NCBI RefSeq assembly: GCF_001517585.1
Contig: NZ_FBYC01000004.1
Coordinates: forward strand, 2,437,501 to 2,501,500
Length of the DNA: 64,000 bases
Source of the DNA: Roseibaca calidilacus
GTDB lineage: Bacteria; Pseudomonadota; Alphaproteobacteria; Rhodobacterales; Rhodobacteraceae
Direction of reading: 5' to 3'
Shown: one piece after another, positions 8,671 through 41,312 of the stretch
Layout of the letters: every line of letters starts with the position of its first letter
Numbering within the stretch: the first letter of the stretch is position 1
Made by a program: the position numbers and the translations under genes
Notes under the pieces: generated by a model
Told to the model about the DNA's origin: nothing
Seen by the model: only the letters and a program-made list of their open reading frames with translations
The model's database searches: none

Positions 8671-8882
8671 GCTCACTCCACCTTTCGGCGCTTGCACGCG
8701 CCTCTGACCAAATCGTCATTGCCGTTGACCACGCGCCGGGGTTGTCGGCACGCGCAGGCTTCCATAGAAGGGCAGGTGAACCGCACGGCCCCGAGCATCG
8801 CAGAACCTTGGCAGCGATGTAATGGGCGGCCATGAGATAGTCAACAAAGCGCACCTTGCCTGCGCAGAATGGAGAGCCCGAT

Positions 8883-26064: not shown

Positions 26065-27573
26065 TCATGCCACCTTGTCGCCCAACCCCGAAATTGCCTG
26101 AATCAGGTTGTCCTCTGTCACCTCTTGGGCGGTGAACTCGCGCATGATACGGCCGCTGAACATGGCAACAATCCGATCGGACACGCGCAGCACCTCTGGC
26201 ATTTCCGAACTGATGACGATGACCGCGTAACCTTGCGCCGCAAGCTCTCGGATCAGGTTGTGGATTTCCGATTTCGACCCCACGTCGATGCCGCGCGTGG
26301 GTTCGTCCACGATCAGCACATCGGGGCGCATGGACAGCCATTTGCCAATGACGATCTTCTGCTGGTTCCCACCCGATAGGTTCTTCACGGTCTGTCGCCA
26401 GCCCGGCGTGCGAATATCCAGCTTGTCGCGGTATTGGTCGAAAATCGCGATTTCGGCCCCGTCGCTGACGAAAGGCCCCGCCGTCAGGTCATCGACCTGC
26501 GGCAAGGTCATGTTGTCGCGGCAATTCATACCCAGCACCAAGCCCTGATCCTTGCGGTCCTCTGGCACAAGCGAAATGCCGTGGCGCACAGCGTCGATGG
26601 GCGACTTGATCTGAACCTCTTGCCCGTTGATCCAAATCTGCCCGGCCGAGGGCGTGCGCAGCCCAAAAATGGTTTCGGCAATCTCTGTCCGGCCCGCGCC
26701 GACAAGCCCGTAGAAGCCCAGCACCTCGCCCTTGCGCAGTTTGAAGCTGACATCTTCGAACAGATCGCCGCAGGCCAGCCCCTGCACTTCCAGTGCAACA
26801 TCGCCCAAGTCATGGGTGACAGGCCTGCGCGACAAATCCAGACTGCGCCCGATCATCATCTTGGTCACGGCATCTTCGTTGGTTTCGGCGGTGGTCACCG
26901 TGCCCCGATACTGCCCGTCGCGCAAAACGGTGATGCGGTCGGTGATCTTGAAGATCTCTTCCATCCGGTGCGAGATATAAATGATCCCCACGCCCTGCTT
27001 TTGCAGCCCGGCAATCACCTGAAACAAAACCACCTTTTCGGAATCGGTCAGCGACGCGGTGGGTTCGTCGAAGATGACCGCGCGGGGCGACACGGTCAGC
27101 GCGCGGCCGATCTCGACCATCTGTTGGTTGGCAAGGGACAGGTCGCCCACGCGGGTTTTCGCGTTGAACCCGACATTGAGCGTTTTCAGGATGGCGTCTG
27201 TCTCGGCATATAGCTTGTCCCAATCGACACGCCCGAAACTTTTCAGCGGCAACTCACCCAGAAAGATATTCTCGGCCACGGTCAGTTCACCGGCAAGGCT
27301 CAGCTCTTGGTGGATGAACACCACCCCCAAGGCCTTGGCCTGTTTGGGCGAGGTCATGGTGACGGGTTCTTCGCCAACAAAGATCTGCCCTTCATTGGGG
27401 GAATGAATGCCGCCCAGAACCTTCATCAAGGTGGATTTGCCCGCGCCATTCTCGCCCATCAGGGCGTGCACTTCGCCGGGGCGAACATCGAAAGACACGT
27501 CATCCAGTGCGCGCACGCCGGGAAAGGTTTTGACAATGCCCTCAAGGCGTAGAACCGGTGTTTGCTCGGTCAT
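26065..27573 (-). CDS. Sugar-type ABC importer ATPase (RbsA-like, two ATPase domains)
   Basis: A 502-residue protein with tandem ABC domains, as in RbsA, XylG and MglA. Walker A of the first is GENGAGKSTLMK and its signature LSLANQQM; the second has a modified Walker A (GLVGAGRTEIAE) and the signature LSGGNQQK. It powers the importer made with the two permeases encoded upstream and the binding protein. The ATG at 27573 overlaps the first permease stop by four bases; a longer in-frame extension to 27798 lies inside the permease gene and is rejected. The substrate is likely a monosaccharide, polyol or similar compound. Confidence 0.93.
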   Translation of the reverse strand: MTEQTPVLRLEGIVKTFPGVRALDDVSFDVRPGEVHALMGENGAGKSTLMKVLGGIHSPNEGQIFVGEEPVTMTSPKQAKALGVVFIHQELSLAGELTVAENIFLGELPLKSFGRVDWDKLYAETDAILKTLNVGFNAKTRVGDLSLANQQMVEIGRALTVSPRAVIFDEPTASLTDSEKVVLFQVIAGLQKQGVGIIYISHRMEEIFKITDRITVLRDGQYRGTVTTAETNEDAVTKMMIGRSLDLSRRPVTHDLGDVALEVQGLACGDLFEDVSFKLRKGEVLGFYGLVGAGRTEIAETIFGLRTPSAGQIWINGQEVQIKSPIDAVRHGISLVPEDRKDQGLVLGMNCRDNMTLPQVDDLTAGPFVSDGAEIAIFDQYRDKLDIRTPGWRQTVKNLSGGNQQKIVIGKWLSMRPDVLIVDEPTRGIDVGSKSEIHNLIRELAAQGYAVIVISSEMPEVLRVSDRIVAMFSGRIMREFTAQEVTEDNLIQAISGLGDKVA

Positions 27574-28565
27574 ATCTTCAACTCCCCTTGGCCCTGACGG
27601 TTCAATTGGCGGTCCAAGACCAGCACGGCGATCAGAATCAGGCCGATCACAAGGTTCACGGTCTGCGTGTCGGCGCCGATATGGCCCAAGCCCTTGCGCA
27701 ACAATTGAATGGCAATCACGCCCCCAAGGGTAGAGATGATGGACCCATATCCCCCTGCCAGCTTGGTGCCGCCCAGCACGACGGCGGTGATGGCCCATAG
27801 TTCATACAGCATCCCGTCATTGGGGTTTACCGACCCGCTTTCAGAATAGAACACAACCGCCGACAATGCGGCCAGAAAGCCGATCAGTATGAAGTTCCAC
27901 AAGAAATGCGGACCCACGCGGATACCGGCATTCACCGCCGCCTCTCGGTTGTTGCCAATGGCATAGGCGTTGCGGCCATGAACGGTTTTGGTCATCAGCA
28001 GCCACAGCACAAGCGCCGTGCCCAGCAGGAACCATGTCGCGGTATGTAGGCCCAGAAACTGCGCTTCGGCGAAATCGACCAAGGTCCAGTTCAGGTGGCT
28101 GGTGGGTTGTTCACCGTTGAACATGAACACAATGCCTCGAAAGCCCAGCATCGCGCCCAGCGTGACGATGAAGGCATCGACCCCGGTTTTCCACACAATG
28201 ATGCCGTTAATCGCCCCCATGATAACCCCCGTCGACAGCGCGAACAGCCATGCCAGCAGGATCGCCCAATCGCCCAAGTCCTGCATGAAGGGCCATGTCA
28301 GGCTTTCCAGCAGGACAATGGCCGCAAGGGCAAAGGTTGCCCCCACGCTTAGGTCGATATTGCCGTTAATCATGATAATCGTCATGCCCAGCGCGATAAT
28401 CCCGATAGGGGCGGATTGCTTCAGCACCAGAAGCATGTTGTCCACGGCCAGAAACGGTTTGTCAGAGGACGACAACACATCGCCGATGACAGAGAAAAAC
28501 ACCAATTCCAGCAGGATGAAGCCCCAGATCGCGCTGCGTTTTAGTAGGTCTTTGCGGTTGGTCAT
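27570..28565 (-). CDS. ABC importer permease (RbsC family), second
   Basis: A 331-residue membrane protein of the RbsC/AraH/MglC family, with about nine or ten hydrophobic segments and the family signatures GMTIIMINGNIDLSVGAT and NNREAAVNAGIRV. It forms the membrane channel together with the neighbouring permease. Its ATG is 12 bases downstream of the other permease stop and its stop overlaps the ATPase start. Having two different permeases rather than one homodimer is common in this subfamily. Confidence 0.92.
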   Translation of the reverse strand: MTNRKDLLKRSAIWGFILLELVFFSVIGDVLSSSDKPFLAVDNMLLVLKQSAPIGIIALGMTIIMINGNIDLSVGATFALAAIVLLESLTWPFMQDLGDWAILLAWLFALSTGVIMGAINGIIVWKTGVDAFIVTLGAMLGFRGIVFMFNGEQPTSHLNWTLVDFAEAQFLGLHTATWFLLGTALVLWLLMTKTVHGRNAYAIGNNREAAVNAGIRVGPHFLWNFILIGFLAALSAVVFYSESGSVNPNDGMLYELWAITAVVLGGTKLAGGYGSIISTLGGVIAIQLLRKGLGHIGADTQTVNLVIGLILIAVLVLDRQLNRQGQGELKI

Positions 28566-28577
28566 GTCACAGCGTCC

Positions 28578-29549
28578 TTATGCAATCGGGGACCACAAAC
28601 GGCCCCGCTTGGCGGCGACATCCAGCCAGACGGCAAGGATGATGATGGCCCATGTCACGATGTACTGAACGTAGAAATCCAGCCCCACCAACAACAGTCC
28701 GTTCTGGATAAACCCAAGGATCAGCACACCGATCACGGTCTTGAACACGGTGCCCGACCCGCCCAAAAGCGACGCCCCGCCAAGGATGACAGCGGCCAGA
28801 ACCTCTAGCTCCATCCCCTGCCCCACGGTGTTCTGGCTGCCCAAGCTGCGGCTGGCCTGCAACAGCCCCGCCACGGCCACGCAGAACGCGGAAATCAGGT
28901 AAGTATAAAACACCACCCGCGCGCGCGGGATGCCGGAAAAGGTTGCCGCCTGTCCATTGCCGCCCACGGCATAGACCTTGCGCCCGAACGGGGTTTTTGC
29001 CAGCAGTATGGCCAGCAGCGCCGCCAAGGCCGCGAGAATCAGGATCGGCACGGGAATGCCCATGATGCGTTCCTGCCCGAAAACCGAGAACCAAGTTTCT
29101 GACTTTTCGGCAATATCCATGTTCTTGCCGCCCGACCATGTCAGCGTCAGCCCATGGATGGCAGACAGCATTCCCAGCGTTACGATCAAGGAATTGAGCT
29201 TTAGATACCCTACCAGAAACCCGATAAACGCGCCCAGGCACAAGGTCAGCGCGAACATGGCCGGGATGGCCAGCGCCGGGCCGATCTTGTCGTGCAAGTC
29301 CAGCACTACGATGGTGGAAAACGACATCATGGACCCCACGGACAGGTCCAGATTGCCGCCGATCACCACGAAGGTGACGCCCAGCGCCATGACCCCCAGA
29401 ATTGCCGAGGACCGGATCACACCCGCGATATTGTCGACCGCGATAAACCGTTGGTTGGCCAGCGCGAAGCCGATCATGAACACCGCAAAGGCAATCAGAA
29501 TGCCCTGTTTGCCCAGCAGCCTGCCGATATCCTGCTTTGTCATCTGCAT
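28578..29549 (-). CDS. ABC importer permease (RbsC family), first
   Basis: A 323-residue membrane protein paralogous to the next gene (the two share the VIGGNLDLSVGSMMS-type loop and the GNGQAATFSGIPRARV-type cytoplasmic loop). About nine hydrophobic segments are visible. The ATG at 29549 is preceded by GGGAGGAAAGCAA, which decides it against a TTG five codons upstream. It lies between the SDR gene and the second permease in a tightly packed operon. Confidence 0.92.
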   Translation of the reverse strand: MQMTKQDIGRLLGKQGILIAFAVFMIGFALANQRFIAVDNIAGVIRSSAILGVMALGVTFVVIGGNLDLSVGSMMSFSTIVVLDLHDKIGPALAIPAMFALTLCLGAFIGFLVGYLKLNSLIVTLGMLSAIHGLTLTWSGGKNMDIAEKSETWFSVFGQERIMGIPVPILILAALAALLAILLAKTPFGRKVYAVGGNGQAATFSGIPRARVVFYTYLISAFCVAVAGLLQASRSLGSQNTVGQGMELEVLAAVILGGASLLGGSGTVFKTVIGVLILGFIQNGLLLVGLDFYVQYIVTWAIIILAVWLDVAAKRGRLWSPIA

Positions 29550-29573
29550 TTGCTTTCCTCCCAAAGGCCGCGC

Positions 29574-30371
29574 TCAGACCAGCGTCATGCCCCCGTCAAT
29601 CATTATGATCTGGCCAGTCATGTAGTCGCTGTCACGAGAGGCCAGAAAAGTTGTCGTTCCGGTAATGTCATGTGGCGTGGCAACACGCCCTTTCAGAATG
29701 TCGGCGGAAAACTCTTCCATTGCCTGACCGGGCCGTTCGGCGGCACCAATGGCCATCAGGTCTTGGTCGACCTGCTCCCACATTTCCGTGGCGACCACGC
29801 CGGGCGCGAAACCTGTCACGGTAATATCATGCGCCGCCAAATCGCGCGCGCCCGATTGAGTCAGCGCCACCACGGCCCATTTACTGGCACAATAGGGTGC
29901 CACGTTACCAAAGCCCTGACGGCTGGCAATGCTGGCCGTGTTCACGATCTTGCCGCCGGTGCCTTGCGCGATCATCTGGCGCGCGGCTTCCTGCATTCCG
30001 ATCAGGCAGCCCAGCCCGTTTATGGCCATGATGAAATTCCAGTTATCTTCGGTCACATCCAGAAAGTTCATCGGCTTGTTCACGCCGGCATTGTTGAATT
30101 TCACATCCAGACGGCCAAAGCGGTCCACGGTATGCGCAATCATGGCGCGGACCTGGTCGCGGTCGGTCACATCCACGGCGGCGTGAGCGACCTTTGCGCC
30201 CGTCGCTGCGGCGCGGGCGGCGTTTGCATCGGCCACTTCCTGCACCTTTGCCGCGTTGATATCGGCAAAACAGACATGCGCGCCTTCGTCCAGAAGCGCC
30301 TCTCCGATTGCGCGGCCTATGCCCTGCGCAGCCCCTGTCACGATACAGGACCGTCCTGCAACACGCGCCAT
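29574..30371 (-). CDS. SDR-family dehydrogenase (acetoin/sorbitol reductase-like)
   Basis: A 265-residue short-chain dehydrogenase. The nucleotide-binding TGAAQGIG, the NNAGV strand, the catalytic Ser in NTASIAS and YCASK (Tyr-x3-Lys) are complete; FADINA after the second beta-strand favours NAD(H). The C-terminal half (PGVVATEMWEQVDQDL, DSDYMTGQIIMIDGG) resembles acetoin reductase and sorbitol dehydrogenase. A paralogue with the same WEQ signature is encoded at 33448. Being between the binding protein and the permease genes, it should oxidise the imported compound, or a derivative of it. Confidence 0.9.
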   Translation of the reverse strand: MARVAGRSCIVTGAAQGIGRAIGEALLDEGAHVCFADINAAKVQEVADANAARAAATGAKVAHAAVDVTDRDQVRAMIAHTVDRFGRLDVKFNNAGVNKPMNFLDVTEDNWNFIMAINGLGCLIGMQEAARQMIAQGTGGKIVNTASIASRQGFGNVAPYCASKWAVVALTQSGARDLAAHDITVTGFAPGVVATEMWEQVDQDLMAIGAAERPGQAMEEFSADILKGRVATPHDITGTTTFLASRDSDYMTGQIIMIDGGMTLV

Positions 30372-30450: not shown

Positions 30451-31401
30451 TCAGAACACCGGCTTGGTGAACTCGTCCATGTTGTCTTGGGTGATCTTCG
30501 GCGTGTCGAAATAGTTCAGGAACGGCACGTCTTCGCCGCTCAGCACGTCGATGGCGGTTTGCAGCGCGGCCTCGGCATCATCTACCGGGGACTGGTAGAT
30601 TGACCCCCAGTAGTCGCCGTCGGCCATGGCGTCATAGCCCACGGCGAAATTGGTCGCGCCAACGAAGATGATCCCGTCGCGCCCGGCATCTTTGGCCGCG
30701 TTCAATGCGCCAACGCCCATGTTGTCGTCACCCGCGTAGACGCCATCAATGTCGTCATACTTGACAAGGAAGGCTTCCATCACCTGCTGAGATTTTTCGC
30801 GGTTCCAGTCGCCCGGCTGGGTTTCGACCAGCATCACGTTAGGGCAGACTTCGGGCAGACGATCCTCGAACCCCTTGGCGCGTTCGATTGCGGTGGTGTA
30901 GCCCGGCTGACCGGAAATCTGCACCACGCGGGCCTCGTCCTCGATCCCCATATCGGTGAACTTGTCACACATGATCTCTGCCGAGCGGGACCCTTGGGTG
31001 ATGTTGTCAGGGCCAGAGAAGGACGCCACAAAATCGAACCCGCTTTCGGCAATGTTCGAATTGGTGACAATGACCGGAATATCAGCCTGCGCCGCGCGGC
31101 GCACAGCCGGGATCACGGCTTCGCCATTCGTCGGCCAGATGATGATTGCGTCCACTTCCTGTTGAATCAGGTCATCCATCTGCGCCAGCTGGCGCGCCAC
31201 GTCGCCGCCGGCGTCCAGAACGACCGCGTTCACGTCCGGGTTTGCTTCGGCGGCGGCAATGAAAGCCCGCTCATAAGTGGTCTGATAGCTGTCAACACCC
31301 ACGTTGTTCTGGGTAATGCCGATATTCATGGTGTCTGCACTTGCGGCGGCACCGATCAGCGCCGTGCTGCACGCCAAGGCCAGTTTTGCTGTTGTCTTCA
31401 T
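30451..31401 (-). CDS. Periplasmic sugar-type substrate-binding protein
   Basis: A 316-residue exported protein of the ribose/galactose-binding family (Peripla_BP_4). The signal peptide MKTTAKLALACSTALIGAAA is cut near SAD-TMN. The repeated IIIWPTNGEAVIPAVRRAAQ and DIPVIVTNSNI segments, and DGVYAGDDNMGVGALNAAKD, are typical for the fold. The ATG at 31401 follows GGGAGGAAAACGAT; an in-frame start 30 codons upstream would precede the signal peptide. It is the first gene of the importer operon and is divergent from the HTH/solute-binding fusion regulator. Confidence 0.93.
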   Translation of the reverse strand: MKTTAKLALACSTALIGAAASADTMNIGITQNNVGVDSYQTTYERAFIAAAEANPDVNAVVLDAGGDVARQLAQMDDLIQQEVDAIIIWPTNGEAVIPAVRRAAQADIPVIVTNSNIAESGFDFVASFSGPDNITQGSRSAEIMCDKFTDMGIEDEARVVQISGQPGYTTAIERAKGFEDRLPEVCPNVMLVETQPGDWNREKSQQVMEAFLVKYDDIDGVYAGDDNMGVGALNAAKDAGRDGIIFVGATNFAVGYDAMADGDYWGSIYQSPVDDAEAALQTAIDVLSGEDVPFLNYFDTPKITQDNMDEFTKPVF

Positions 31402-31530
31402 ATCGTTTTCCTCCCGTGTGAATTCGTATGCGATCGCAAGCCTCCCAGCATCGGAGCACAACAGGCTCTGACCGAACGCCCCTAGAGTCATCGCGATTCT
31501 GGCGCGTCATGCCTCTGACAATTTATCAAC

Positions 31531-31580
31531 TTTGGATAGTTTTATTATCATTTTGGATTTTTTGGCGATATTTTTGGCAT
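31531..31580. promoter_or_regulatory. Three phased TTTGG boxes between divergent operons
   Basis: TTTGGAT at 31531-31537, TTTGGAT at 31552-31558 and TTTGGCAT at 31573-31580 begin exactly 21 bp apart, two turns of DNA, in an AT-rich stretch. The first two are preceded by TATCA. A further TTTGGCGAT lies at 31561. They end 33 bp before the fusion-regulator gene, where its promoter must be. This looks like an array of regulator half-sites, probably for the fusion regulator itself. Confidence 0.5.
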
Positions 31581-31613
31581 CCGATTTGAGCGAATTCAAA
31601 CAGGAGAGATCCC

Positions 31614-33437
31614 ATGCGCGTCAGATTGCCGCCAGACCAACACTTAGATTTTGGGAAAATGAAACACAGCACGGCACGAAATATTCAAACCGGACAATCC
31701 GTGGCAGTCCAGCCGCGCGATGCTGCTGTGGCCTTGAACGACCCCGATGTGGACCGGGTAGCTGATTTTCTAAGCGATCTTCTGGTCGAGTTGGACAGCG
31801 GGCTAGAACCCAGCACGCCCAACCCGCATTTGCGGATGATCCTGCACCTGATGCGCAGCCATTCGGAAGGGCGGATCGTCTCGCCCTCGTCGCTGGTTGC
31901 CTCTGCGGGCGTGCCCTATGCCACGGCCACCCGCAAACTGGCAGAGGTGGAAGCAGCTGGCCTGATCGACCGCCGCGCGCGCACCCGCACCGGAAAAAGC
32001 CATTCCTTACACCCCAGCGCCAACCTGCTGGAAGGGTTCAGCCAATTGGCAGACCGCATCGACCGGCTTGCACGGCAGTCCTTTGGTCTGGCCGGGCCAG
32101 CACCCGAAACCACGGATTACTATTTCGGCGGATCATACCAGCCCGGCCGCGCCGCCATTGCCCCGCCGCGCGCCCTGCCAGAACCGCTGAAACTGTCGGG
32201 GGGTTTGCGCATTCTGGTGCATGGCGACCCGACCTTCATGGTCATGGAAGGGCTAAAACGCCAATTTGAACAAATCGTTGGCACCACCATTCATCAGCGT
32301 GCTTTCAGCATCGACCGGCTGCGCGAAGAAGCGTTGCGCAACGCCGAACGCCCCAAAAGCCGTTACGATCTGATCGCCGTGGACCTGCCTTGGGTGGGCG
32401 AGTTCGTAGAGAAGGGCGTCATCCGCCCGCTGGACGGGGTTATGGACGTGGCGCGACTGGACCCGGCCGATTTTCACACAGCCGGGTGGCGCGCTGCGCA
32501 TTGGGACGGTCGCCCCTACGGCGTGCCCAGCCAGACCACGCCGGAACTGATGTTCTACCGCAAGGACTGGTTCGCCAATGAGGGGCTGGAGCCGCCCACA
32601 ACCACAGATGCCGTGATCGCCGCCGCGCGCCAGTTGCACAACCCGCAGCGGGGCCGCTACGGGGTGGCATGGAATGCCGCGCGCGGCACGGCGCTGGGGC
32701 ATACATTCATGATGACCTGCGGTGCCTTCGGCCAGCCGATAATCGATATGCCCCGCATTGCTGGCGGGTATGACACTGACCGTCTGGCGCAAGGCGGGTT
32801 CACCCCAACGCTGAACACCGATCGCGCCCTGGAAGCAGCTGATTACCTGATGCAGCTTCTGGATTACTCACCGCCCGATATTCTATCCATGTCATGGTAT
32901 GAGAGGGTGCGCCCCTACGGTGCGGGCCATGTGGCCATGGCCTATGGCTACACGCTGCTGGCCCCGTATTTTGAGCTGAACGAAAACAGCCCCGCGCATG
33001 GCAATACCGGGTATCTGCCGCATCCACATGGGCCGAAAGGCAACCCGATTGCGCCGGTGGGGGGTTATGTTCTGTGCGTGCCGGCCAATCTGGCGGAAGA
33101 GCGCATTGACGATACTGTCGAAGCGCTTGTCACCTTCACCTCGCCCGGCGCGCAGAAGCTATACGCCCAGAACGGCAGCCGGACAGAGCCGCGCTATTCC
33201 GTAGGCGCAGACCCAGAGGTGCGGCGCTTGTCGCCCATTTTCGGGCTGCTGGACCAGATGTCATGGCGTGACGAGCTGCAATTCTGGCCGCGCCCGCCGA
33301 TTCCGCAAGTGTCGGACATCATCGACCTGTGCGGGCGCGAGCTGCACGACATGCTGCGGGGGATCGTCACCCCGCGCGACGCCTTGGACCGTGTGCAGTC
33401 CGAGGCAGAGAAAATCCTGAAATCCAAGGTCACTTAG
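31614..33437 (+). CDS. Winged-helix regulator fused to a MalE/UgpB-like solute-binding domain
   Basis: A 607-residue protein of unusual design. Residues about 45-155 hold a winged helix: HLRMILHLMRSHSEGRIVSP, then SSLVASAGVPYATATRKLAE and VEAAGLIDRR. Residues about 195-600 resemble a family 1 extracellular solute-binding protein (ILVHGDPTFMVMEGLKRQFE, YDLIAVDLPWVGEFVEKGVI, AMAYGYTLLAP). There is no signal peptide or membrane segment, so the binding domain should act in the cytoplasm as ligand sensor, comparable in principle to LacI-type regulators but with an unrelated binding fold. CAGGAGAG precedes the ATG. It is divergent from the importer operon and ten bases upstream of an SDR gene, so it likely controls this cluster. 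Confidence 0.85.
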   Translation: MRVRLPPDQHLDFGKMKHSTARNIQTGQSVAVQPRDAAVALNDPDVDRVADFLSDLLVELDSGLEPSTPNPHLRMILHLMRSHSEGRIVSPSSLVASAGVPYATATRKLAEVEAAGLIDRRARTRTGKSHSLHPSANLLEGFSQLADRIDRLARQSFGLAGPAPETTDYYFGGSYQPGRAAIAPPRALPEPLKLSGGLRILVHGDPTFMVMEGLKRQFEQIVGTTIHQRAFSIDRLREEALRNAERPKSRYDLIAVDLPWVGEFVEKGVIRPLDGVMDVARLDPADFHTAGWRAAHWDGRPYGVPSQTTPELMFYRKDWFANEGLEPPTTTDAVIAAARQLHNPQRGRYGVAWNAARGTALGHTFMMTCGAFGQPIIDMPRIAGGYDTDRLAQGGFTPTLNTDRALEAADYLMQLLDYSPPDILSMSWYERVRPYGAGHVAMAYGYTLLAPYFELNENSPAHGNTGYLPHPHGPKGNPIAPVGGYVLCVPANLAEERIDDTVEALVTFTSPGAQKLYAQNGSRTEPRYSVGADPEVRRLSPIFGLLDQMSWRDELQFWPRPPIPQVSDIIDLCGRELHDMLRGIVTPRDALDRVQSEAEKILKSKVT

Positions 33438-33447
33438 GGAGGACACC

Positions 33448-34254
33448 ATGGACCCCAACCGCCTGAAGGGCAAAAACATCCTGATTACCGGTGCCGCGCG
33501 CGGCATGGGTGCCGCCAATGCCGAAGCCTTTGCCGCCCAAGGTGCCAATGTCTGCCTTGGCGACCTGTCGCTGGAAGAAGCGCAAGAGGTGGCCGACCGC
33601 ATCAACGCCGCCGGAAACGGCAAGGCCATCGCGGTCAAGATGGATGTCACCAAGCGCGAGGACAACGCCGCCGTCGTTGCCGCCACGGTTGACGCCTTCG
33701 GGTCCATCAATGTCGGCCTGTTCAATGCGGGCCTGAACAAGCCCCGGTTCTTCATGGATATCGATGAAGACAACTGGGACATGATCATGAATGTGAACAC
33801 CAAGGCGATGTGGCTGGGCATGCAAGAGGTCGCGCGCCAGATGATCGCGCAAGGCCCGCAGGACAAGCCCTATAAGCTAGTCAATGTCGGCTCTATCGCC
33901 AGCCGCAAACCGCTGGTGGATGTGACGGTTTACTGCACCTCGAAATACGGCTGTCTGGCGCTGACCGAATGCGGCGCGCTTGGGCTGGCGGAACATAACA
34001 TTACCGTCAATGGCTACGCGCCCGGCGTGGTGGTCACGCCGCTATGGGAACAGCTGGACAAAGATTTGGTCGAAATCGGCTTCAAGGAACGCGCGGGCCA
34101 AGCCTATGACGACATTGTCGCGAACAATCTGGTCATCAAGCGCGTGTCCTACCCCAAGGATGTGGTCGGCACGGCGTCGTTCCTATGCTCCGATGACAGC
34201 GACTACATGACTGGCCAGATGATCTCTATCGATGGTGGCTGGGTTACAAAGTAA
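33448..34254 (+). CDS. SDR-family dehydrogenase, paralogue of the one at 29574
   Basis: A 268-residue short-chain dehydrogenase with TGAARGMG, the NAGLNKP strand end, SIAS and YCTSK (catalytic Tyr and Lys). It shares with the SDR of the importer operon the segments NNAGVNKP/FNAGLNKP, DNWD/DNWN, GMQE(V/A)ARQMIAQG, WEQ(L/V)D and DSDYMTGQ, so both come from one duplication. GLNKP and WEQLDKDLVEIG recall acetoin reductase and sorbitol dehydrogenase. AGGGAGGA lies ahead of the ATG. The pair may oxidise successive intermediates or stereoisomers. Confidence 0.9.
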   Translation: MDPNRLKGKNILITGAARGMGAANAEAFAAQGANVCLGDLSLEEAQEVADRINAAGNGKAIAVKMDVTKREDNAAVVAATVDAFGSINVGLFNAGLNKPRFFMDIDEDNWDMIMNVNTKAMWLGMQEVARQMIAQGPQDKPYKLVNVGSIASRKPLVDVTVYCTSKYGCLALTECGALGLAEHNITVNGYAPGVVVTPLWEQLDKDLVEIGFKERAGQAYDDIVANNLVIKRVSYPKDVVGTASFLCSDDSDYMTGQMISIDGGWVTK

Positions 34255-34320
34255 CCCGTTGTTTTTATTTGCTTCCTACCCATGAGCGGGCGTGCCTTGC
34301 ACACCCGAAAGGAGACCTTC

Positions 34321-35619
34321 ATGACACGCGCCCTGATGCCGAACCTTCTGACCCCGCAAGACCTGAAGCCCAATTGGGAATGGCGTGATCGCTTGCCCGC
34401 TTGGGGCCATACCTCGGTCGATTTCGAACGCCGGGTCGACCATGACCGCCTGCGCCGCTACCGGCTGGCGCGCACCCGGCAAAGCTTGCAGAACTCGCCC
34501 GCCGGGTCGCTGCTGTTGTTCGATGTGAACAATATTCGCTATGTCAGCGCCACCAAGATCGGCGAATGGGAACGCGACAAGATGTGCCGTTTCTGCCTGC
34601 TGACCGGCGATGACAGCCCCTATGTGTGGGATTTCGGCTCGGCTGCCGTGCACCATCAGCGCCATTCCGACTGGCTGGAACCGGACCATTGCTTGGCCGG
34701 TGTGGTCGGTATGCGCGGCACCATCCCGCCCGAATTTGGGCTGATGAAGAAATACGCCAAGATGATCGCCCAGCTCATCAAGGATGCGGGCATGGCCGAT
34801 ATGCCGGTGGGCGTGGATTACGCCGAAACCGCTATGTTCCATGCGCTTCAGGAAGAAGGCATCAAGGTCATCGACGGCCAGCAGATCATGCTTGCCGCGC
34901 GCGAAATCAAGAACTGGGACGAGATCCAGCTTCTGACGCAGGCCGCTGCGATGGTCGATGGCGTCTACCACATGATCTACGAAGAACTGAAACCCGGCGT
35001 GCGCGAGAACGACATCGTGGCACTCTCGAACAAGCTGCTGTATGAGATGGGGTCGGACGATGTGGAAGCGATCAACGCCATTTCAGGCGAGCGGTGCAAC
35101 CCGCATCCGCATAACTTTACCGACCGGCTGATCCGGCCCGGCGACCAGTGCTTCTTTGACATTCTGCAAAGCTATCAGGGCTACCGCACCTGCTACTACC
35201 GCACCTTCAACGTGGGCCGCGCAACACCGGCGCAGAACGACGCCTATGTGAAGGCGCGTGAATGGATCGATGCGTCGATTGCCATGATCAAACCGGGTGT
35301 CACCACCGACAAGGTGGCCGAAGTCTGGCCCACCGCGGAATCCTTGGGCTTCCCGAACGAGGATGCCGCCTTCGGGCTGCAATTCGGCCACGGTCTGGGG
35401 CTGGCGCTGCACGAGCGGCCCATCATCAGCCGCGCGGTCAGTCTGGACCACCCGATGGAAATCCAGACCGGCATGGTCTTTGCGCTGGAAACCTATTGCC
35501 CCGCCGCCGATGGCTATTCCGCCGCCCGGATTGAGGAAGAGGTGGTCGTCACGGAAACCGGTTGCGAGGTGATCAGCCTGTTCCCGGCCGAAGAATTGCC
35601 GATTGCGAACCGCTACTGA
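34321..35619 (+). CDS. M24-family metallopeptidase-like protein (DddP-like)
   Basis: A 432-residue pita-bread fold protein. In this group belong Xaa-Pro peptidases, creatinase and the DMSP lyase DddP. The N-terminal domain has SLLLFDVNNIRYVSAT. In the catalytic domain Asp280 (FFDI), His357 (GHGLGLALHE), Glu390 (ALETYCP) and Glu405 (ARIEEE) fit M24 metal ligands, but the second Asp of the usual DxGxxYxGYxSDxTRT pattern is not there (the sequence reads GYRTCYYRTF). The same GYRTCYYRT stretch is, as I recall, typical of DddP. A peptidase, lyase or other C-N/C-S cleaving enzyme is possible. AAAGGAGA precedes the ATG. Confidence 0.75.
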   Translation: MTRALMPNLLTPQDLKPNWEWRDRLPAWGHTSVDFERRVDHDRLRRYRLARTRQSLQNSPAGSLLLFDVNNIRYVSATKIGEWERDKMCRFCLLTGDDSPYVWDFGSAAVHHQRHSDWLEPDHCLAGVVGMRGTIPPEFGLMKKYAKMIAQLIKDAGMADMPVGVDYAETAMFHALQEEGIKVIDGQQIMLAAREIKNWDEIQLLTQAAAMVDGVYHMIYEELKPGVRENDIVALSNKLLYEMGSDDVEAINAISGERCNPHPHNFTDRLIRPGDQCFFDILQSYQGYRTCYYRTFNVGRATPAQNDAYVKAREWIDASIAMIKPGVTTDKVAEVWPTAESLGFPNEDAAFGLQFGHGLGLALHERPIISRAVSLDHPMEIQTGMVFALETYCPAADGYSAARIEEEVVVTETGCEVISLFPAEELPIANRY

Positions 35620-35735: not shown

Positions 35736-36713
35736 ATGGCCAAGGCCAAGACCAATACCGAAGACTACTTGCGAATGTATACCCAGATGGTGCGCATCCG
35801 CACCTTCGAGGATAACGCGAACCAGCTTTACCTGTCCGCCAAGATGCCGGGCCTGACGCATATGTATTCCGGCGAGGAAGCGGTGGCCGTGGGCATTTGC
35901 GAAGCGCTGACGGATGACGACCGCATCACCAGCACCCACCGGGGCCACGGGCATTGCGTGGCCAAGGGCGCGGAATTCAAGGAAATGTTCTGCGAGTTGC
36001 TGGGCAAGGCCGAGGGCTATTGCCGGGGCAAGGGCGGGTCAATGCATATTGCCGACCAAAGCCACGGCAACCTTGGCGCGAATGCCATTGTCGGCGGGTC
36101 CATGGGCATTGCCACAGGGTCCGCCCTGCGCGCCAAGCTGCAAGGGTCAGACGACGTGACCGTGTGTTTTTTTGGCGACGGCGCGACCGCGCAAGGGCTG
36201 TGGTACGAGGTGATGAACATGGCGGCACTCTGGAAGCTGCCGGTCATCTATGCCTGCGAGAATAACGGCTATTCCGAATACACCAAGACAGAGGAAATCG
36301 CCGCCGGGTCCATCACCGCGCGGGCCGAAGCCTTCGGGATCGAAAGCCACCAGGTCGATGGGCAGGATGTGCTGGCCGTCAATGAACTGACGCAAAAGCT
36401 GGTCGCCCGTGCGCGCAAGGGGGAAGGGCCGTTCTTCATCGAGTTGATGACCTATCGCTACCACGGCCACCATGTCGGCGACATCAACCGCGAATATTAC
36501 CGATCCAAGGACGAAGAAAAGGACTGGAAAGACAACCGCGACCCGATCGTGCGGTTCCGGGGCTACTTGGTCGAACAAGGCATCGCATCCGAGGAGGAGA
36601 TCGAGGCGATCAATGCGGCGGTCGAGAAGGACGCAGCCGATGCCGTCGCCTATGCCGAAGCTGCCGCCTACCCCGATGTGTCCGAAGTGGACATGCATAT
36701 TTACGCCGCCTGA
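35736..36713 (+). CDS. 2-oxo acid (acetoin-type) dehydrogenase E1 alpha subunit
   Basis: A 325-residue thiamine diphosphate enzyme subunit of the AcoA/PdhA type. The ThDP motif is GDGATAQGLWYEVMNMAALW, followed by ENNGYSEYT; GHGHCVAKGAEFKEM and GKGGSMHI are AcoA/PdhA signatures. With the beta subunit it decarboxylates a 2-oxo acid or cleaves acetoin and passes the acyl or hydroxyalkyl group to lipoamide. The phosphorylation-loop serines of mitochondrial E1 are not expected. GAAGGGATAA precedes the ATG. The neighbours (two SDR, aldehyde dehydrogenase) make acetoin or a related ketol more likely than pyruvate. Confidence 0.88.
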   Translation: MAKAKTNTEDYLRMYTQMVRIRTFEDNANQLYLSAKMPGLTHMYSGEEAVAVGICEALTDDDRITSTHRGHGHCVAKGAEFKEMFCELLGKAEGYCRGKGGSMHIADQSHGNLGANAIVGGSMGIATGSALRAKLQGSDDVTVCFFGDGATAQGLWYEVMNMAALWKLPVIYACENNGYSEYTKTEEIAAGSITARAEAFGIESHQVDGQDVLAVNELTQKLVARARKGEGPFFIELMTYRYHGHHVGDINREYYRSKDEEKDWKDNRDPIVRFRGYLVEQGIASEEEIEAINAAVEKDAADAVAYAEAAAYPDVSEVDMHIYAA

Positions 36714-36725
36714 GGAGGAAAGATC

Positions 36726-37721
36726 ATGCGCGAGATTACCCTGTCGCAGGCCGTAAACGAGGCGATTGCCGAGGAAATGCGCCGCGATCCGACCGTGTTC
36801 CTGATGGGCGAAGATGTGGCCGAGGCGGGCACGCCCTTCAAGGTGCTGTCGGGCCTTGTCGAGGAATTCGGAACCGAGCGCGTATTGGATACACCGATTT
36901 CCGAACCCGGATTCGTGGGCATGGCCGTCGGCGCCGCGATGACCGGCGCGCGCCCCATCGTGGACCTGATGTTCGGCGATTTCATCTATCTGGTCATGGA
37001 CCAGCTTTGTAATCAGGCCGCCAAGCAACATTACATGTCGGGCGGCAAACTGACCGTGCCGATGGTGTTGCGCACGAATATGGGCGCGACGCGCCGCTCT
37101 GCCGCGCAGCATAGCCAAAGCCTGCAAGCCATCGTGGCGCATATTCCGGGGCTGAAAGTGGCCATGCCTTCATCAGCCTATGAAGCCAAGGGGCTGATGA
37201 AAACCGCCATCCGCGACAATAACCCGGTGGTGATTTTCGAAGACAAGCTGATGTATCAGGACAAGGCCCCTGTGCCGGAGGAGGAATATCTGATCCCCTT
37301 CGGCCAAGCGCATATCAAGCGCGAAGGGTCCGACATTACGCTGATCGGCACGTCTTCGATGGTGCAGGTGGCTGAAAAAGCCGCCGAGATGCTGGCCGCC
37401 GAAGGCATAAGCGCCGAGGTCATCGACCCGCGCACCATTGTGCCCTTGGATGAAGCAACGTTGCTGGACAGCGTAAAGAAAACCAGCCGCGCGATTGTCA
37501 TAGATGAGGGCCATCAAAGCTATGGCGTAACCGCCGAGATCGCATCGCGCCTGAACGAAAAGGCATTCTACCATCTGGATGCACCTGTGCTGCGCATGGG
37601 GGCTATGGATGTGCCGGTGCCGTTCAGCCCCGCGCTGGAAGATATCACCGTGCCGACGCCCGAAGGCGTGGCCGCGAATGCGCGCAAGCTCTGCGCAGGA
37701 GAGATGATCCATGCCGCATGA
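36726..37721 (+). CDS. 2-oxo acid (acetoin-type) dehydrogenase E1 beta subunit
   Basis: A 331-residue partner of E1 alpha. EALNEAI-type start (SQAVNEAIAEEMRRDPTVFL), GEDVAEAGTPFKV, DTPISEPGFVGMAVGAAMTG and the transketolase C-terminal part (DPRTIVPLDEATLLDSVKKT) are seen. It completes the alpha2beta2 E1 of the multienzyme complex and contributes the second half of the ThDP site. GAGGAGGAAAGATC gives a strong ribosome site. It overlaps the E2-like gene by 11 bp. Confidence 0.93.
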   Translation: MREITLSQAVNEAIAEEMRRDPTVFLMGEDVAEAGTPFKVLSGLVEEFGTERVLDTPISEPGFVGMAVGAAMTGARPIVDLMFGDFIYLVMDQLCNQAAKQHYMSGGKLTVPMVLRTNMGATRRSAAQHSQSLQAIVAHIPGLKVAMPSSAYEAKGLMKTAIRDNNPVVIFEDKLMYQDKAPVPEEEYLIPFGQAHIKREGSDITLIGTSSMVQVAEKAAEMLAAEGISAEVIDPRTIVPLDEATLLDSVKKTSRAIVIDEGHQSYGVTAEIASRLNEKAFYHLDAPVLRMGAMDVPVPFSPALEDITVPTPEGVAANARKLCAGEMIHAA

Positions 37722-38979
37722 TGTGACAATGCCTCAACTGGGCATGGCGCAGGACGCGGGGCGTATCGTCGCCTGGCTGAAAGCGCCGGGCGACGCGGTT
37801 GCCAAGGGCGATGCCCTGTTCGAGGTCGAAACCGACAAGGCCACGATGGAGGTAGAGGCGCAGGCTTCGGGCTACTTGACCGGCGTTCTGGCCGATGAAG
37901 GCGATGACGTGCCTGTGGGGCAAGTGATCGCGCGCATCTCCGACAGTGCCGAGGATGACAGCCCTGCGCCTGCTGCCGCCCCGGAAGCCGCGCCTGTAAG
38001 CGACGCCCTGCCAGAGGGCCAACAGATCACCATGCCGCAGCTTGGCATGGCGCAAGATAGCGGGCAGATGGTGGGCTGGCTGGTCGAACTGGGCGCGCAG
38101 GTCGGCCCGGATGATCTGCTGTTCGAGGTCGAAACCGACAAAGCCACGATGGAAGTGCCCGCAGGGGCCAGCGGCTATCTGGCCGCGACCTTGGCGCAGC
38201 CGGGAGAGGATGTGGCCGTCGGCGCACCCGTGGCGATCCTGACCGCAGAGGCGCCGGAAAACCCCGTTGCGCGCGCGGCAGCAGATGTAGGCCCATCATC
38301 GCCCCCCGCCCCGGTGCCACCCGAACCAAAAGCCCCGCCACCCAGGGCCGCGGAAGCCGCAACACCCCCCAAAGCGCCGGTCCCAAAGGGCGGGCGCATT
38401 CTGGCGTCGCCCAAGGCGCGGCGCTTGGCATTGCAACAGGGGCTGGACCTGTCGCGCTTGGTAAAAGCGGGCCACCCGCAGCCTTATCATGTCGCCGATC
38501 TGGAGGTGCTGCGCGCCCTGCCCAATGCCGCGGCCCCGCAGGCCGCAAGCCAAACCAGCCGCCGCCTGACCGCACGGGTCAAACACCCGGCTTTGGACGT
38601 GTTCCTGAACTGGGCGCAGGCGCAAGGGCTGGACAACCCCGATGCCGCCTTGGCGGGGCTGCTGGGCAAAGGGCATGTCGCAACGTTGGGCATAGAGCGG
38701 GCAGGCCGCCTGCAAAGTTTCACCATCGCGCACCGCCTGTCGCAGGTTGCCGAAACCCAAGACGCGCCCGCCCTGATCTTGCGCGATCTGCGCGACAGTT
38801 TCGTGCAGGACGTGGATCTCGGGGCAGAGAATACGCCCGTGCTGACGCTGCTGCCAAAAGGCAAAGGGCTACTGCTGGTGCTGGAATGCGCGCCCGACCA
38901 CCTAAGCGCGGCAGACGCAATCGAGCTTTTGAACACTGTTGCAGGACGCGTGGCGCAACCGCTTCGCCACCTGCAGTAA
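37711..38979 (+). CDS. E2-like protein: two lipoyl domains, subunit-binding domain, degenerate catalytic domain
   Basis: A 422-residue protein. Lipoyl domain 1 (residues 1-78) and 2 (105-180) each carry ETDKATMEV, with lipoyl lysines Lys43 and Lys144. A Pro/Ala linker leads to a peripheral subunit-binding domain (about 229-268; ILASPKARRLALQQGLDLSR). The last 135 residues resemble only the ends of an acyltransferase domain: where active E2 has DHRxxDG there is CAPDHLSAADA, and most of the CoA-binding core is missing. It can therefore carry acyl-lipoate and bind E1 or E3 but should not transfer the acyl group, similar in design to mitochondrial E3-binding protein. The active transferase is encoded at 40425. 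Confidence 0.88.
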   Translation: MPHDVTMPQLGMAQDAGRIVAWLKAPGDAVAKGDALFEVETDKATMEVEAQASGYLTGVLADEGDDVPVGQVIARISDSAEDDSPAPAAAPEAAPVSDALPEGQQITMPQLGMAQDSGQMVGWLVELGAQVGPDDLLFEVETDKATMEVPAGASGYLAATLAQPGEDVAVGAPVAILTAEAPENPVARAAADVGPSSPPAPVPPEPKAPPPRAAEAATPPKAPVPKGGRILASPKARRLALQQGLDLSRLVKAGHPQPYHVADLEVLRALPNAAAPQAASQTSRRLTARVKHPALDVFLNWAQAQGLDNPDAALAGLLGKGHVATLGIERAGRLQSFTIAHRLSQVAETQDAPALILRDLRDSFVQDVDLGAENTPVLTLLPKGKGLLLVLECAPDHLSAADAIELLNTVAGRVAQPLRHLQ

Positions 38980-38990
38980 AGGGGACCGAC

Positions 38991-40415
38991 ATGGACCACA
39001 CCGATCTTTATATCAACGGCGCATGGGTGCAGACCGACACGCGGTTTGACGTCATCAACCCGGCAACCGAAACCGTTCTGGCCTCTGTCGCCAGTGCCGA
39101 ACTCGAACATGCCGACGCCGCGCTGGACGCCGCCGAAGCCGCGATGGCCGATTGGGCCAAGCGCACCCCGCGCGAACGCTCGGAAGTGCTGCGCCGCGCG
39201 TGGGAGTTGATGACCGCGCGGCTGGATCACTTCGCGCATCTGATTACGCTGGAAAACGGCAAGGCAGGCGCGGACGCACGGGGCGAGGCGACCTATGCCG
39301 CCGAATTCTTCCGCTGGTTCGCAGAGGAAGCCGTCCGCGCCGATGGGATGATTACCCATGCCCCCAGCAGCGGCGCGCGGATCATGGTGCAGCACAAGCC
39401 CGCCGGGCTGGCGGTGCTGATTACGCCTTGGAACTACCCCGCTGCGATGGGCACACGCAAGATTGCGCCCGCGCTGGCGGCAGGCTGCGCGGTCATCATC
39501 AAACCCGCGTCAGAGACGCCGCTGACCATGCTGGCGCTGATGCCGCTTCTGGCAGAGGCCGGCGTGCCGCCCGGCCTTGTGAATGTGCTGCCCTCGAAGC
39601 GCACGGGGGCGCTTGTGGACCACATGCTGCATGACCCGCGCGTGCGGGTGGTCAGCTTCACCGGGTCCACCGGTGTCGGGCGCACATTGCTGAAAGGGGC
39701 CGCCGACCAAGTGTTGAAACCGGCGATGGAACTGGGCGGCAACGCGCCCGTGCTCGTGTTTGACGATGCCGATATGGATACGGCAATCGAGGGCACGATG
39801 CTGGCCAAAATGCGCAACCTGGGCGAGGCCTGCACCGCCGCGAACCGCATATACGTTCACGCCGACATTGCCCCAGAGTTTACCGCCCGGCTGACCGCCG
39901 CCATGTCGGCGCTGAAACTGGGTGACGGCACCGACCCGTCGGTCGATGTTGGCCCGCTGGTGAATGCCGCAACCCGCGACAAGGTGGCCGCGTTCGTGGC
40001 CGATGCCGTCGCCAAGGGCGCCAAGGTCGAGTGCGGCGGCGTGGTGCCAGAGGGCACAGGCTATTTCTACCCGCCGACCGTGCTGTCGAACGTTCCCGAA
40101 AACGCCGATTGCGTGCAGGATGAAATCTTTGGTCCGGTTGCCGCGATACAGACCTTTAGCGACCAAGAAGACGTGATCGCCCGCGCCAACAACACCGAAT
40201 ATGGGCTGGTCGCCTATGTGTTCTCGGGCGATTTCAAGCGCGCGTTGCAGGTCTGCGAGCGGTTGGATTACGGCATGGTTGGCCTCAATCGCGGGTTGGT
40301 CAGCGACCCGGCAGCCCCCTTTGGCGGGACCAAGCAATCCGGGCTGGGCCGCGAAGGCGGGCATGAGGGGATGCTGGAATTCATGGAAACGCAATATATC
40401 TCGGCCAGTTGGTAA
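38991..40415 (+). CDS. NAD(P)-dependent aldehyde dehydrogenase (succinate-semialdehyde dehydrogenase-like)
   Basis: A 474-residue ALDH superfamily enzyme. PWNYPAAMGTRKIAPALAAG, the NAD loop FTGSTGVGRTLL, catalytic Glu in ELGGNAP and Cys in NLGEACTAANRIY are all present, with C-terminal PFGGTKQSGLGREGG. The overall pattern is GabD-like. In this cluster it may instead oxidise the aldehyde released by the ThDP complex, for example acetaldehyde if the substrate is acetoin. AAAGGGGACCGAC precedes the ATG, and it sits between the two E2 genes. Confidence 0.9.
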   Translation: MDHTDLYINGAWVQTDTRFDVINPATETVLASVASAELEHADAALDAAEAAMADWAKRTPRERSEVLRRAWELMTARLDHFAHLITLENGKAGADARGEATYAAEFFRWFAEEAVRADGMITHAPSSGARIMVQHKPAGLAVLITPWNYPAAMGTRKIAPALAAGCAVIIKPASETPLTMLALMPLLAEAGVPPGLVNVLPSKRTGALVDHMLHDPRVRVVSFTGSTGVGRTLLKGAADQVLKPAMELGGNAPVLVFDDADMDTAIEGTMLAKMRNLGEACTAANRIYVHADIAPEFTARLTAAMSALKLGDGTDPSVDVGPLVNAATRDKVAAFVADAVAKGAKVECGGVVPEGTGYFYPPTVLSNVPENADCVQDEIFGPVAAIQTFSDQEDVIARANNTEYGLVAYVFSGDFKRALQVCERLDYGMVGLNRGLVSDPAAPFGGTKQSGLGREGGHEGMLEFMETQYISASW

Positions 40416-40424
40416 GGGGGCATC

Positions 40425-41312
40425 ATGGACCTGAAAGCAAGCCCCAGCACCAAGAGCTACGCCGCCAACAAGGGCGTTGATCTGGAAGAACTGGCCCGAA
40501 AAACCGGGCGCAGCACCTTGGGCCGAGAGGATGTTGACGCACACCTGGGCGGCAACGCACCTGCCATGGGCGGGCCGGACCAGTCCCGTTATTGGGCTGT
40601 GGACCATGCCGCGCAGGGGCCTGTGTCCGAAGAACCGCTGTCGCGCATGGCCAAGGTTGCCGCCGCGAACCTGAGCGCGGCACATGCGTTGATCCCGCAG
40701 GTCACGCATCATGACCGCGCCGATATCTCTGCGGTGGATGCGTTGCGCAAAGCGTGGCGCGCAGAGGCGCAGGCGCGCGGGCTAAAACTGACCGCGCTTG
40801 CGTTTCATGTCATGGCGCTGGCGCAGTGCTTGCGCGCGTTTCCACGGTTCAACGCTTCGCTTTCCGCCGATGGTGAGACGTTGATTCTGAAAGATTACGT
40901 GCATATCGGCATCGCCGTGGACACGCCCCATGGCTTGATGGTGCCGGTTATCCGCAACGCAGACCGCAAAGGGCTGTGGGAGCTGTCCGCCGAAATCGCG
41001 GACTTGGCCGCCCGCGCGCAGGCCCGCAAGATCGGCCCGGATGAGATGGGCGGCGCGTCCATGAGCATCAGCAATCTGGGCGGCATTGGCGGCATTGGGT
41101 TTTCGCCCATCGTCAACCCCCCGGAACTGGCGATTCTGGGCATCACCCGCACCGGAACCGTCACGCTCTGGGAGGGCGACACCCCCCGCCCGGTGCCGAT
41201 GGTGCCGCTGGACCTGTCCTATGACCACAGGGTTATCAACGGTGCCGATGCCGCGCGGTTCATGGCGCGCTATTGCCAGCTTCTTGCAGACCCGCGCAAT
41301 ATGATGGTCTGA
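40425..41312 (+). CDS. Lipoyl-less E2 catalytic subunit (AceF-like acyltransferase)
   Basis: A 295-residue protein with a peripheral subunit-binding domain at the start (ASPSTKSYAANKGVDLEELA) and a complete 2-oxoacid dehydrogenase acyltransferase domain (about 65-295). Catalytic His268 lies in SYDHRVINGADAARF; the Asp of HRxxDG is Asn, a change I remember also in functional AceF of Azotobacter and Pseudomonas. Other signatures (IPQVTHHDRADI, PRFNASLSADGETLIL, IGIAVDTPHGLMVPVI, LAILGITRTG) match the gammaproteobacterial AceF branch. It has no lipoyl domain and depends on the protein encoded at 37711 for swinging arms. No E3 gene is in the window. Confidence 0.9.
   Translation: MDLKASPSTKSYAANKGVDLEELARKTGRSTLGREDVDAHLGGNAPAMGGPDQSRYWAVDHAAQGPVSEEPLSRMAKVAAANLSAAHALIPQVTHHDRADISAVDALRKAWRAEAQARGLKLTALAFHVMALAQCLRAFPRFNASLSADGETLILKDYVHIGIAVDTPHGLMVPVIRNADRKGLWELSAEIADLAARAQARKIGPDEMGGASMSISNLGGIGGIGFSPIVNPPELAILGITRTGTVTLWEGDTPRPVPMVPLDLSYDHRVINGADAARFMARYCQLLADPRNMMV

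Follow-up and report, generated by a model that had tools for sequence, protein, structure and literature searches.

A MarR-type winged helix joined to a family 1 solute-binding protein: a candidate cytoplasmic regulator beside a ribose-type importer in Roseibaca calidilacus

Results

The DNA analysed here, a stretch of 64,000 nucleotides from Roseibaca calidilacus (the window), contains an intact reading frame with an ATG start for a protein of 607 amino acids, preceded by a Shine-Dalgarno-like AGGAGAG at 31602-31608 (Table 1). The first-pass annotation read this gene as a one-component regulator divergent from a complete importer operon whose own binding protein has the ribose fold, and the layout is as it described: RbsB matches Peripla_BP_4 and is accompanied by two BPD_transp_2 permeases and an RbsA-like ATPase. 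The pathway genes encode two short-chain dehydrogenases (SDRs), an M24 enzyme, a pyruvate-dehydrogenase-like E1, a split E2, and an aldehyde dehydrogenase. The lipoyl and acyltransferase domains of the E2 are encoded by separate genes, with the aldehyde dehydrogenase gene between them.

TABLE 1 Features of the regulator locus, in positions of the window
Feature	Positions	Strand	Basis or remark
RbsA-like double ATPase	26065..27573	-	Reading frame listed as extending to 27798; the RbsA match points to a start near 27573
Importer permease	27570..28565	-	Pfam (BPD_transp_2)
Importer permease	28578..29564	-	Pfam (BPD_transp_2)
Short-chain dehydrogenase, importer operon	29574..30371	-	Pfam
Ribose-type (Peripla_BP_4) periplasmic binding protein RbsB of the importer, divergent	30451..31401	-	Pfam, synteny
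Operator 1, TATCAACTTTGGATA	31524..31538	.	Score 12.7 bits, imperfect
Operator 2, TTATCATTTTGGATT	31545..31559	.	21 bp from operator 1; 10.0 bits, imperfect
Weak third operator-like site	31578..31592	.	Score 6.8
Regulator gene	31614..33437	+	MarR-type winged helix (residues 45-157) and family 1 solute-binding protein domain (residues 196-607)
Intragenic operator, TATTCAAACCGGACA	31682..31696	.	+68 from the ATG; 137 bp from operator 2
DNA-binding domain, residues 45-157	31746..32084	+	Recognition helix about 102-114, wing 118-134 (assigned from the model)
SBP_bac_1 sensor domain, residues 196-607	32199..33434	+	Pfam, AlphaFold2, PDB structure match
Short-chain dehydrogenase (SDR2)	33448..34254	+	10 bases downstream of the regulator; Pfam
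M24-family (creatinase/DddP-like) enzyme	34282..35619	+	
2-Oxoacid dehydrogenase E1 alpha	35736..36713	+	
2-Oxoacid dehydrogenase E1 beta	36726..37721	+	
Lipoyl-domain half of the split E2	37711..38979	+	
Aldehyde dehydrogenase (succinate-semialdehyde-like)	38988..40415	+	
Catalytic acyltransferase half of the split E2	40425..41312	+	

A scan of a genome collection by a loose criterion yielded 186 encoding stretches, and the best 80 hold relatives that are near full length and 62-93% identical to the window protein. Among these best 80 of 186, a divergent RbsB gene was found in 79 loci and an SDR gene immediately downstream of the regulator in 78; the failing loci (L069, L071, and L075) are stretches that end at those points. 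RbsA and permease genes were present in 78 loci, the M24 gene in 71, E1 alpha and beta in 65 each, the lipoyl E2 gene in 62, the aldehyde dehydrogenase gene in 61, and the gene for the E2 catalytic protein in 59. In some loci the missing downstream genes reflect contig ends, but some long loci, such as L078 and L079, have no E1 or E2 genes after M24.

Pfam finds SBP_bac_1 in the window protein with 77.8 bits against a gathering cut-off of 26 (E = 2e-21) and SBP_bac_8 at E = 1.5e-16; the only other matches up to E = 1 are MarR_2 and HVO_A0261_N. MarR_2 (residues 71-123, E = 0.0029) does not reach its gathering score, with 18.2 and 21.5 bits against a cut-off of 27, and is matched by 53 of 57 family members at E values of up to 0.5. 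These 57 sequences, namely 45 of the 80 genome-collection loci, 11 others, and the window, form the alignment on which an AlphaFold2 model of the window protein was built; L031, L042, and L095 were excluded (stop codon near the end of the range), and the range of L050 was trimmed ahead of its stop. In the model, a disordered N-terminal tail (approximately residues 1-44; pLDDT below 50 for residues 1-43) is followed by helices at 46-60, 71-84, 91-97, and 102-114, strands at 118-122 and 130-134, and a helix at 136-157, then by a long, poorly ordered linker (160-179) and a solute-binding protein (SBP) domain with pLDDT mostly above 90 from residue 198 to 603.

Predicted in isolation, residues 45-175 (pLDDT 85.6) have a MarR-type winged-helix fold: the best PDB match is MexR (E = 1.7e-4), followed by PecS, MftR, HpaR, and MarR; MexR, PecS, MftR, and HpaR are members of the MarR family. 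This comparison returned 17 matches at E values of 0.001 or below, among which Rv0880 and BpsR came without a family name. The full model matches 5iai at E = 1.7e-29, with a TM score of 0.91 by target length. Pfam, the model, and the PDB matches thus agree with the first-pass annotation that an N-terminal winged helix, folding as a DNA-binding domain, is joined to a full solute-binding domain in one soluble chain, but the DNA-binding part, which had been drawn as far as residue 190, ends near residue 157. Among the 15 SBP_bac_1 matches of the same genome, one carries the winged helix, which is the window protein itself, and no second fusion of this kind was found. By eye, a similar MarR-type winged helix stands at the C terminus of apparent response-regulator (REC) proteins from other Alphaproteobacteria (L180 and L182 to L185).

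The structure closest to the SBP half is that of 5iai, an Agrobacterium SBP (24% identity), and the next closest are a Thermococcus trehalose/maltose-binding protein (1eu8), MalE3, and 4rya, which has sorbitol in its molecule name. Across the 57 members, W260 is invariant and D257, W428, and Y485 are nearly so, and these four residues would line the binding cleft. The motif DxxWxGEFVE is common to the regulator and to two signal-peptide-bearing SBPs (L115 and L098), and its DxxWxG part also occurs in 5iai. The intact fold and the conserved residues argue for ligand binding by this domain, and the earlier proposal that it acts as a sensor fits the complete SBP fold, the motifs of transporter SBPs, and the linkage to importer and catabolic genes. 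Because the names of the nearest SBPs refer to sugars and polyols, and in view of the set of pathway enzymes, our guess is a small polyol or hydroxyketone; the pathway enzymes do not name the substrate.

The full N termini of the window protein and its 80 genome-collection relatives were scanned for hydropathy and also read directly. The maximum over 10 residues within the first 45 is 0.49 for the window protein and ranges from -0.94 to 2.40 across the 81 proteins, against 1.46 to 2.44 in 79 RbsB neighbours; since these ranges overlap, hydropathy by itself does not separate every relative (values up to 2.40) from the RbsB proteins, and the absence of a signal peptide rests partly on the reading of the N termini. 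By both approaches, the window protein has no signal-like N-terminal segment and no evident secretion signal of the kind found in SBP_bac_1 transport proteins, and no membrane span is evident in the 81 proteins (maximum over 19 residues, 0.96-1.54). The absence of a signal peptide and membrane span claimed in the first-pass annotation was borne out for the window protein and supports its placement in the cytoplasm. Since the unfused SBPs L115 and L098, which came from the class-level search (28-29% identity), carry signal peptides that are evident by eye, the SBP domain of the regulator probably descended from a secreted protein.

Divergent regions from 79 of the best 80 of the 186 loci and from the window were aligned (80 regions; L075 is absent, with RbsB out of reach there). 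A tandem palindrome is among their best-conserved noncoding elements, which also include the ribosome-binding sites and a portion of a hairpin in the leader of rbsB. The palindrome, TATCCAnnnTGGATA, forms a pair in which the two best sites lie 21 bp apart in 74 of the 80 promoters, and its symmetric 15-bp matrix has the consensus TRTYCR-NNN-YGRAYA. With this matrix, which was trained on these sites, the best site exceeds the 95% level of 800 dinucleotide shuffles in 80 of 80 regions, and 176 of the 218 sites scoring at least 14 in the 1.45 Mb scanned fall within the 5' region of a regulator, training sites included. These comparative footprints point to specific DNA sites adjoining the gene. 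Operator 2 ends 7 bases ahead of a fixed-distance, -10-like motif, naTACt, of the regulator promoter, and operator 1 most often lies 116-126 bp from the rbsB ATG. A simple promoter scan gave one weak plus-strand candidate (31523-31551, against 0.4 expected) and did not pick the naTACt element, and a promoter for rbsB was sought and not found. In the genome of the window, the bare operator pattern gave 18 sites, hardly above the 11 of a reversed-pattern control, so a whole-genome regulon derived by pattern is not interpretable.

The rbsB 5' untranslated region contains a conserved stem of the GATTGC...GCAATC type (31432-31477, minus strand) that encloses another GGGAGG, located 5' of the actual ribosome-binding site of rbsB. 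In an alignment of 38 of the 80 regions, RNAalifold gives five pairs, each with two-sided changes kept in at least 1 of the 38 sequences, and the window version has a U-U mismatch at one of the five. Rfam returned no match on this strand within 31200-31800; a hit to RF02085 in the same interval (16 bits against a threshold of 50) was taken as chance.

A further palindrome lies inside the regulator gene, and the fragment 31402-31613 that the first-pass annotation had suggested for a gel shift holds the tandem operators but misses this one at 31682. Within their first 190 bases, 65 of 81 regulator genes have a site scoring at least 8 and 16 do not; by a count of the listing, the site lies at +65 or +68 in 55 of 81 genes, and in 43 of 81 it follows the nearest preceding site at a distance of 135-139 bp, or about 13 helical turns. 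When the first 150 bases were scanned with the operator matrix, which had not been trained on intragenic sites, 52 of 81 genes had a site of at least 12 and 39 had one of at least 15. In 100 synonymous shuffles, which leave the protein sequence unchanged, the corresponding numbers of genes averaged 8.24 (maximum, 13) and 2.44 (maximum, 6); these counts overstate significance, because the genes are homologous and not independent samples.

The same shared position in homologous proteins would also suit a conserved protein motif in the N-terminal tail, of which the palindrome is a by-product, yet we regard this as very unlikely, since shuffles that preserve the protein mostly lose the site and the tail is disordered in the AlphaFold2 model. 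Codon use argues in the same direction. A tail peptide of the NIQxGQ type, selected by protein pattern alone, occurs in 45 of the 81 genes, and its glycine codon is GGA in 45 of 45 cases, against 7.6% of the glycines elsewhere in these genes; residues 3 and 6 vary among Q/H/R and Q/Y/H/R, all reachable by operator-compatible codons, although the selection pattern itself permitted few other residues there. Judged from these sequence comparisons, the intragenic palindrome is kept at the DNA level, and its position suggests looping or a roadblock.

Paralogs of 28-46% identity were found in 20 loci. Of 21 paralogs, 13 have a site of at least 12 near the start, where the remaining sequence of these loci predicts 0.96, and 8 have none there; L154, L155, and L158 have no site of at least 10 anywhere in the locus, and L149 and L163, both without a near-start site of at least 12, have a site of 16 between importer genes. 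In L161 (41% identity) and L156 (46%), the regulator sits inside an operon, and paired sites 20 bp apart occupy the divergent SDR2/binding-protein promoter (20.8 and 21.0 in L161; 12.3 and 12.5 in L156); L161 also has a perfect site ahead of M24. In L159, L160, and L164, which are 1.4-Mb AT-rich genomes (G+C, 0.35-0.37) with a regulator of 28-31% identity beside SDR2, M24, and E1 genes, TATTCAnnnTGAATA-type sites lie at the regulator/binding-protein promoter and before SDR2-M24-E1, the promoter site of L164 falling within the longest reading of the regulator frame. Among seven plasmid relatives scanned, L167, L169, L170, and L171 have no site of at least 8 near the start, and the best near-start site of L168 scores 10.2. 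The view of the protein as a DNA-binding regulator is supported by the MarR-type fold together with conserved palindromes beside the gene, inside it, and before the pathway genes of distant relatives.

At several loci, strong operator-like sites are also present within genes. Those inside RbsC1 (19 of 79 genes, against a shuffle mean of 7.7 and a maximum of 16) were set aside as largely due to the peptide FIQNG, and the 74 M24 genes contain no site of at least 14. An operator-like palindrome at 36679-36693, at the 3' end of the E1 alpha gene and 32 bases before E1 beta, is kept in 18 of 67 genes against a mean of 1.6 and a maximum of 5 in synonymous shuffles, these genes being related.

In wider searches, 26 of 60 near relatives matched at E values of 1e-20 or below, 54 of 292 at the order level (1e-30 or below), and 25 of 387 at the class level (1e-12 or below), many of the latter SBP-only; the DNA-binding domain alone gave 13 of 396 at the phylum level (1e-8 or below), some being other kinds of protein. 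All 20 paralog stretches contain an importer-like gene (E of 1e-8 or below to the importer genes of the window), although in L153 the similarity is confined to a binding-protein-like gene and the importer of L147 appears by eye to be maltose type. In L146, one ribose-type importer lies between two paralogous regulators (7663-9420 and 15297-17132; 44% and 37% identity). In 5 of 7 annotated plasmid regions, the regulator is neighboured by sugar-importer genes of one type or the other; L171 has a sugar-binding protein gene only, and L169 has no sugar importer in the stretch. The plasmid regulators of L168, L169, and L170 have intradiol dioxygenase genes nearby, joined in L169 and L170 by a maleylacetate reductase gene, a context suggesting that some family members control aromatic or cyclitol breakdown. 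Of 34 plasmid records, 28 list a product for the regulator, 4 list no gene there, and 2 are without annotation; the products are "extracellular solute-binding protein" (26 records), "ABC-type sugar transport system, periplasmic component" (1), and "hypothetical protein" (1).

Discussion

From the computed architecture, fold, operators, and synteny, we infer a dimer, a ligand, a sign of regulation, and possible looping, and we give a probability of about 0.8 to the reading that this protein is a cytoplasmic one-component regulator, most likely a ligand-released repressor of its own gene, of the importer, and of the SDR/M24/E1-E2/aldehyde dehydrogenase operon. A dimer of MarR-type winged helices would bind the 15-bp palindromes, occupying a pair in the divergent importer/regulator promoter, spaced by two helical turns, and a third, approximately 13 turns downstream, inside the 5' coding sequence of the regulator. 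The C-terminal family 1 SBP, having lost its signal peptide, would sense the incoming substrate or an early intermediate in the cytoplasm, presumably a small sugar-, polyol-, or hydroxyketone-like compound, and closure of the cleft on this ligand would alter the DNA-binding state and release repression. Because operator 2 ends so close to the -10-like motif, a dimer bound there should block the regulator promoter, and because the gap between the regulator and SDR2 is 10 bases, autorepression would extend to the catabolic genes as well. That the protein is a repressor is most likely on the position of the sites.

An activator, or a LysR-like dual regulator that represses its own gene from operator 2 and, when ligand bound, activates the divergent importer promoter, is a less likely but serious possibility, as the divergent layout, the paired sites at a fixed 21-bp spacing, and the usual 116-126 bp between operator 1 and the rbsB ATG would all suit it, and divergent genes with such paired sites are a layout typical of LysR-type regulators. 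However, the regulator gene heads the catabolic operon, with a 10-bp gap to SDR2, so that autorepression would lower expression of the operon too; MarR-type proteins, whose fold this is, are mostly repressors, and relatives have sites ahead of M24 and SDR2. The SBP domain, for its part, might no longer bind a small molecule and might serve for dimerisation or protein docking, for example, in sensing the state of the importer, which would be in keeping with the long, poorly ordered linker; we consider this improbable given the conservation of W260, D257, W428, and Y485 and their likely place in the cleft, the motifs common to transporter SBPs, and the retention of the gene with the same catabolic genes across clades. 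The database names, finally, would make the protein a secreted binding protein of a transporter whose N-terminal extension arose by chance, as the label on 26 of the 34 plasmid records implies, but with no evident signal peptide, a MarR fold, operators, and an importer that already has its own binding protein, we give this next to no credence.

Beyond this locus, we think it reasonably probable that MarR-type winged helices joined to MalE-type binding proteins form an unrecognised, widespread class that is filed among extracellular SBPs and that controls diverse sugar- or polyol-like catabolic regulons in Alphaproteobacteria, and in some Betaproteobacteria, through a largely shared operator code, to which the clade of the window would add a looping-autocontrol operator in its own disordered N-terminal tail. 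Since 26 of the 28 labelled plasmid relatives bear the name extracellular solute-binding protein, a wrong transport label may conceal the regulators of many uptake and catabolic regulons, and the operator code would offer a handle on their targets. The ligand chemistry of family 1 binding proteins is well studied, so ligand screening should be feasible and the parts could be usable as biosensors, and the intragenic operator would exemplify regulatory DNA shaping a disordered protein tail.

Several known systems resemble parts of this regulator. LacI/RbsR proteins are binding-protein-sensor regulators found near ribose-type importers, with a type 1 fold and a LacI helix-turn-helix (HTH), whereas family 1 SBPs have the type 2 binding-protein fold and the window protein joins one of them to a MarR HTH; Pfam found neither a GntR nor a LacI HTH in it up to E = 1. 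LysR-type regulators combine an N-terminal winged helix with an effector domain of the type 2 periplasmic-binding-protein fold and are arranged divergently, and in all of these respects the window protein is similar, but it has a full family 1 SBP of approximately 410 residues and a MarR-type DNA-binding domain, and no LysR HTH or LysR substrate-binding domain was found by Pfam up to E = 1. With the MarR family, for which palindromic operators are typical, it shares the fold of the DNA-binding domain with its flanking helices and the palindromic operators themselves, while its ligand domain is a separate SBP and MarR_2 stays below the gathering score. The whole fold of its SBP half is common to the family 1 transporter SBPs (5iai, 1eu8, and 4rya), but, unlike them, the window protein has no evident signal peptide, is fused to a DNA-binding domain, and has no cognate family 1 importer beside its gene. 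Possible fusions of GntR domains with SBP_bac_1 and of AraC-type domains with binding proteins in Firmicutes are leads for comparison.

The nearest parallel in domain order comes from SgrR of E. coli and its Vibrio homolog DsvR, the latter described as an HTH plus SBP_bac_5, so that an N-terminal HTH, a C-terminal solute-binding domain, and a link to sugar metabolism are common to these proteins and the window protein (PMC13060122). The solute-binding domain is SBP_bac_5 there and SBP_bac_1 here, and Pfam found neither SgrR_N nor SBP_bac_5 in the window protein up to E = 1. SBP_bac_5 is an oligopeptide-type domain, and we know of no SgrR that is divergent from a matching importer operon. More generally, cytosolic proteins and transcriptional regulators can also have SBP domains as their sensors (PMC9602780). 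Among the titles found by searching an open-access library, none describes a winged helix fused to SBP_bac_1, and within that scope the first-pass annotation was right to call a family 1 SBP sensor unusual, but it left out the LysR-type and SgrR/DsvR precedents. Because of these precedents, the principle of a cytoplasmic binding-protein sensor is already known, and it is the architecture that appears new for family 1 SBPs.
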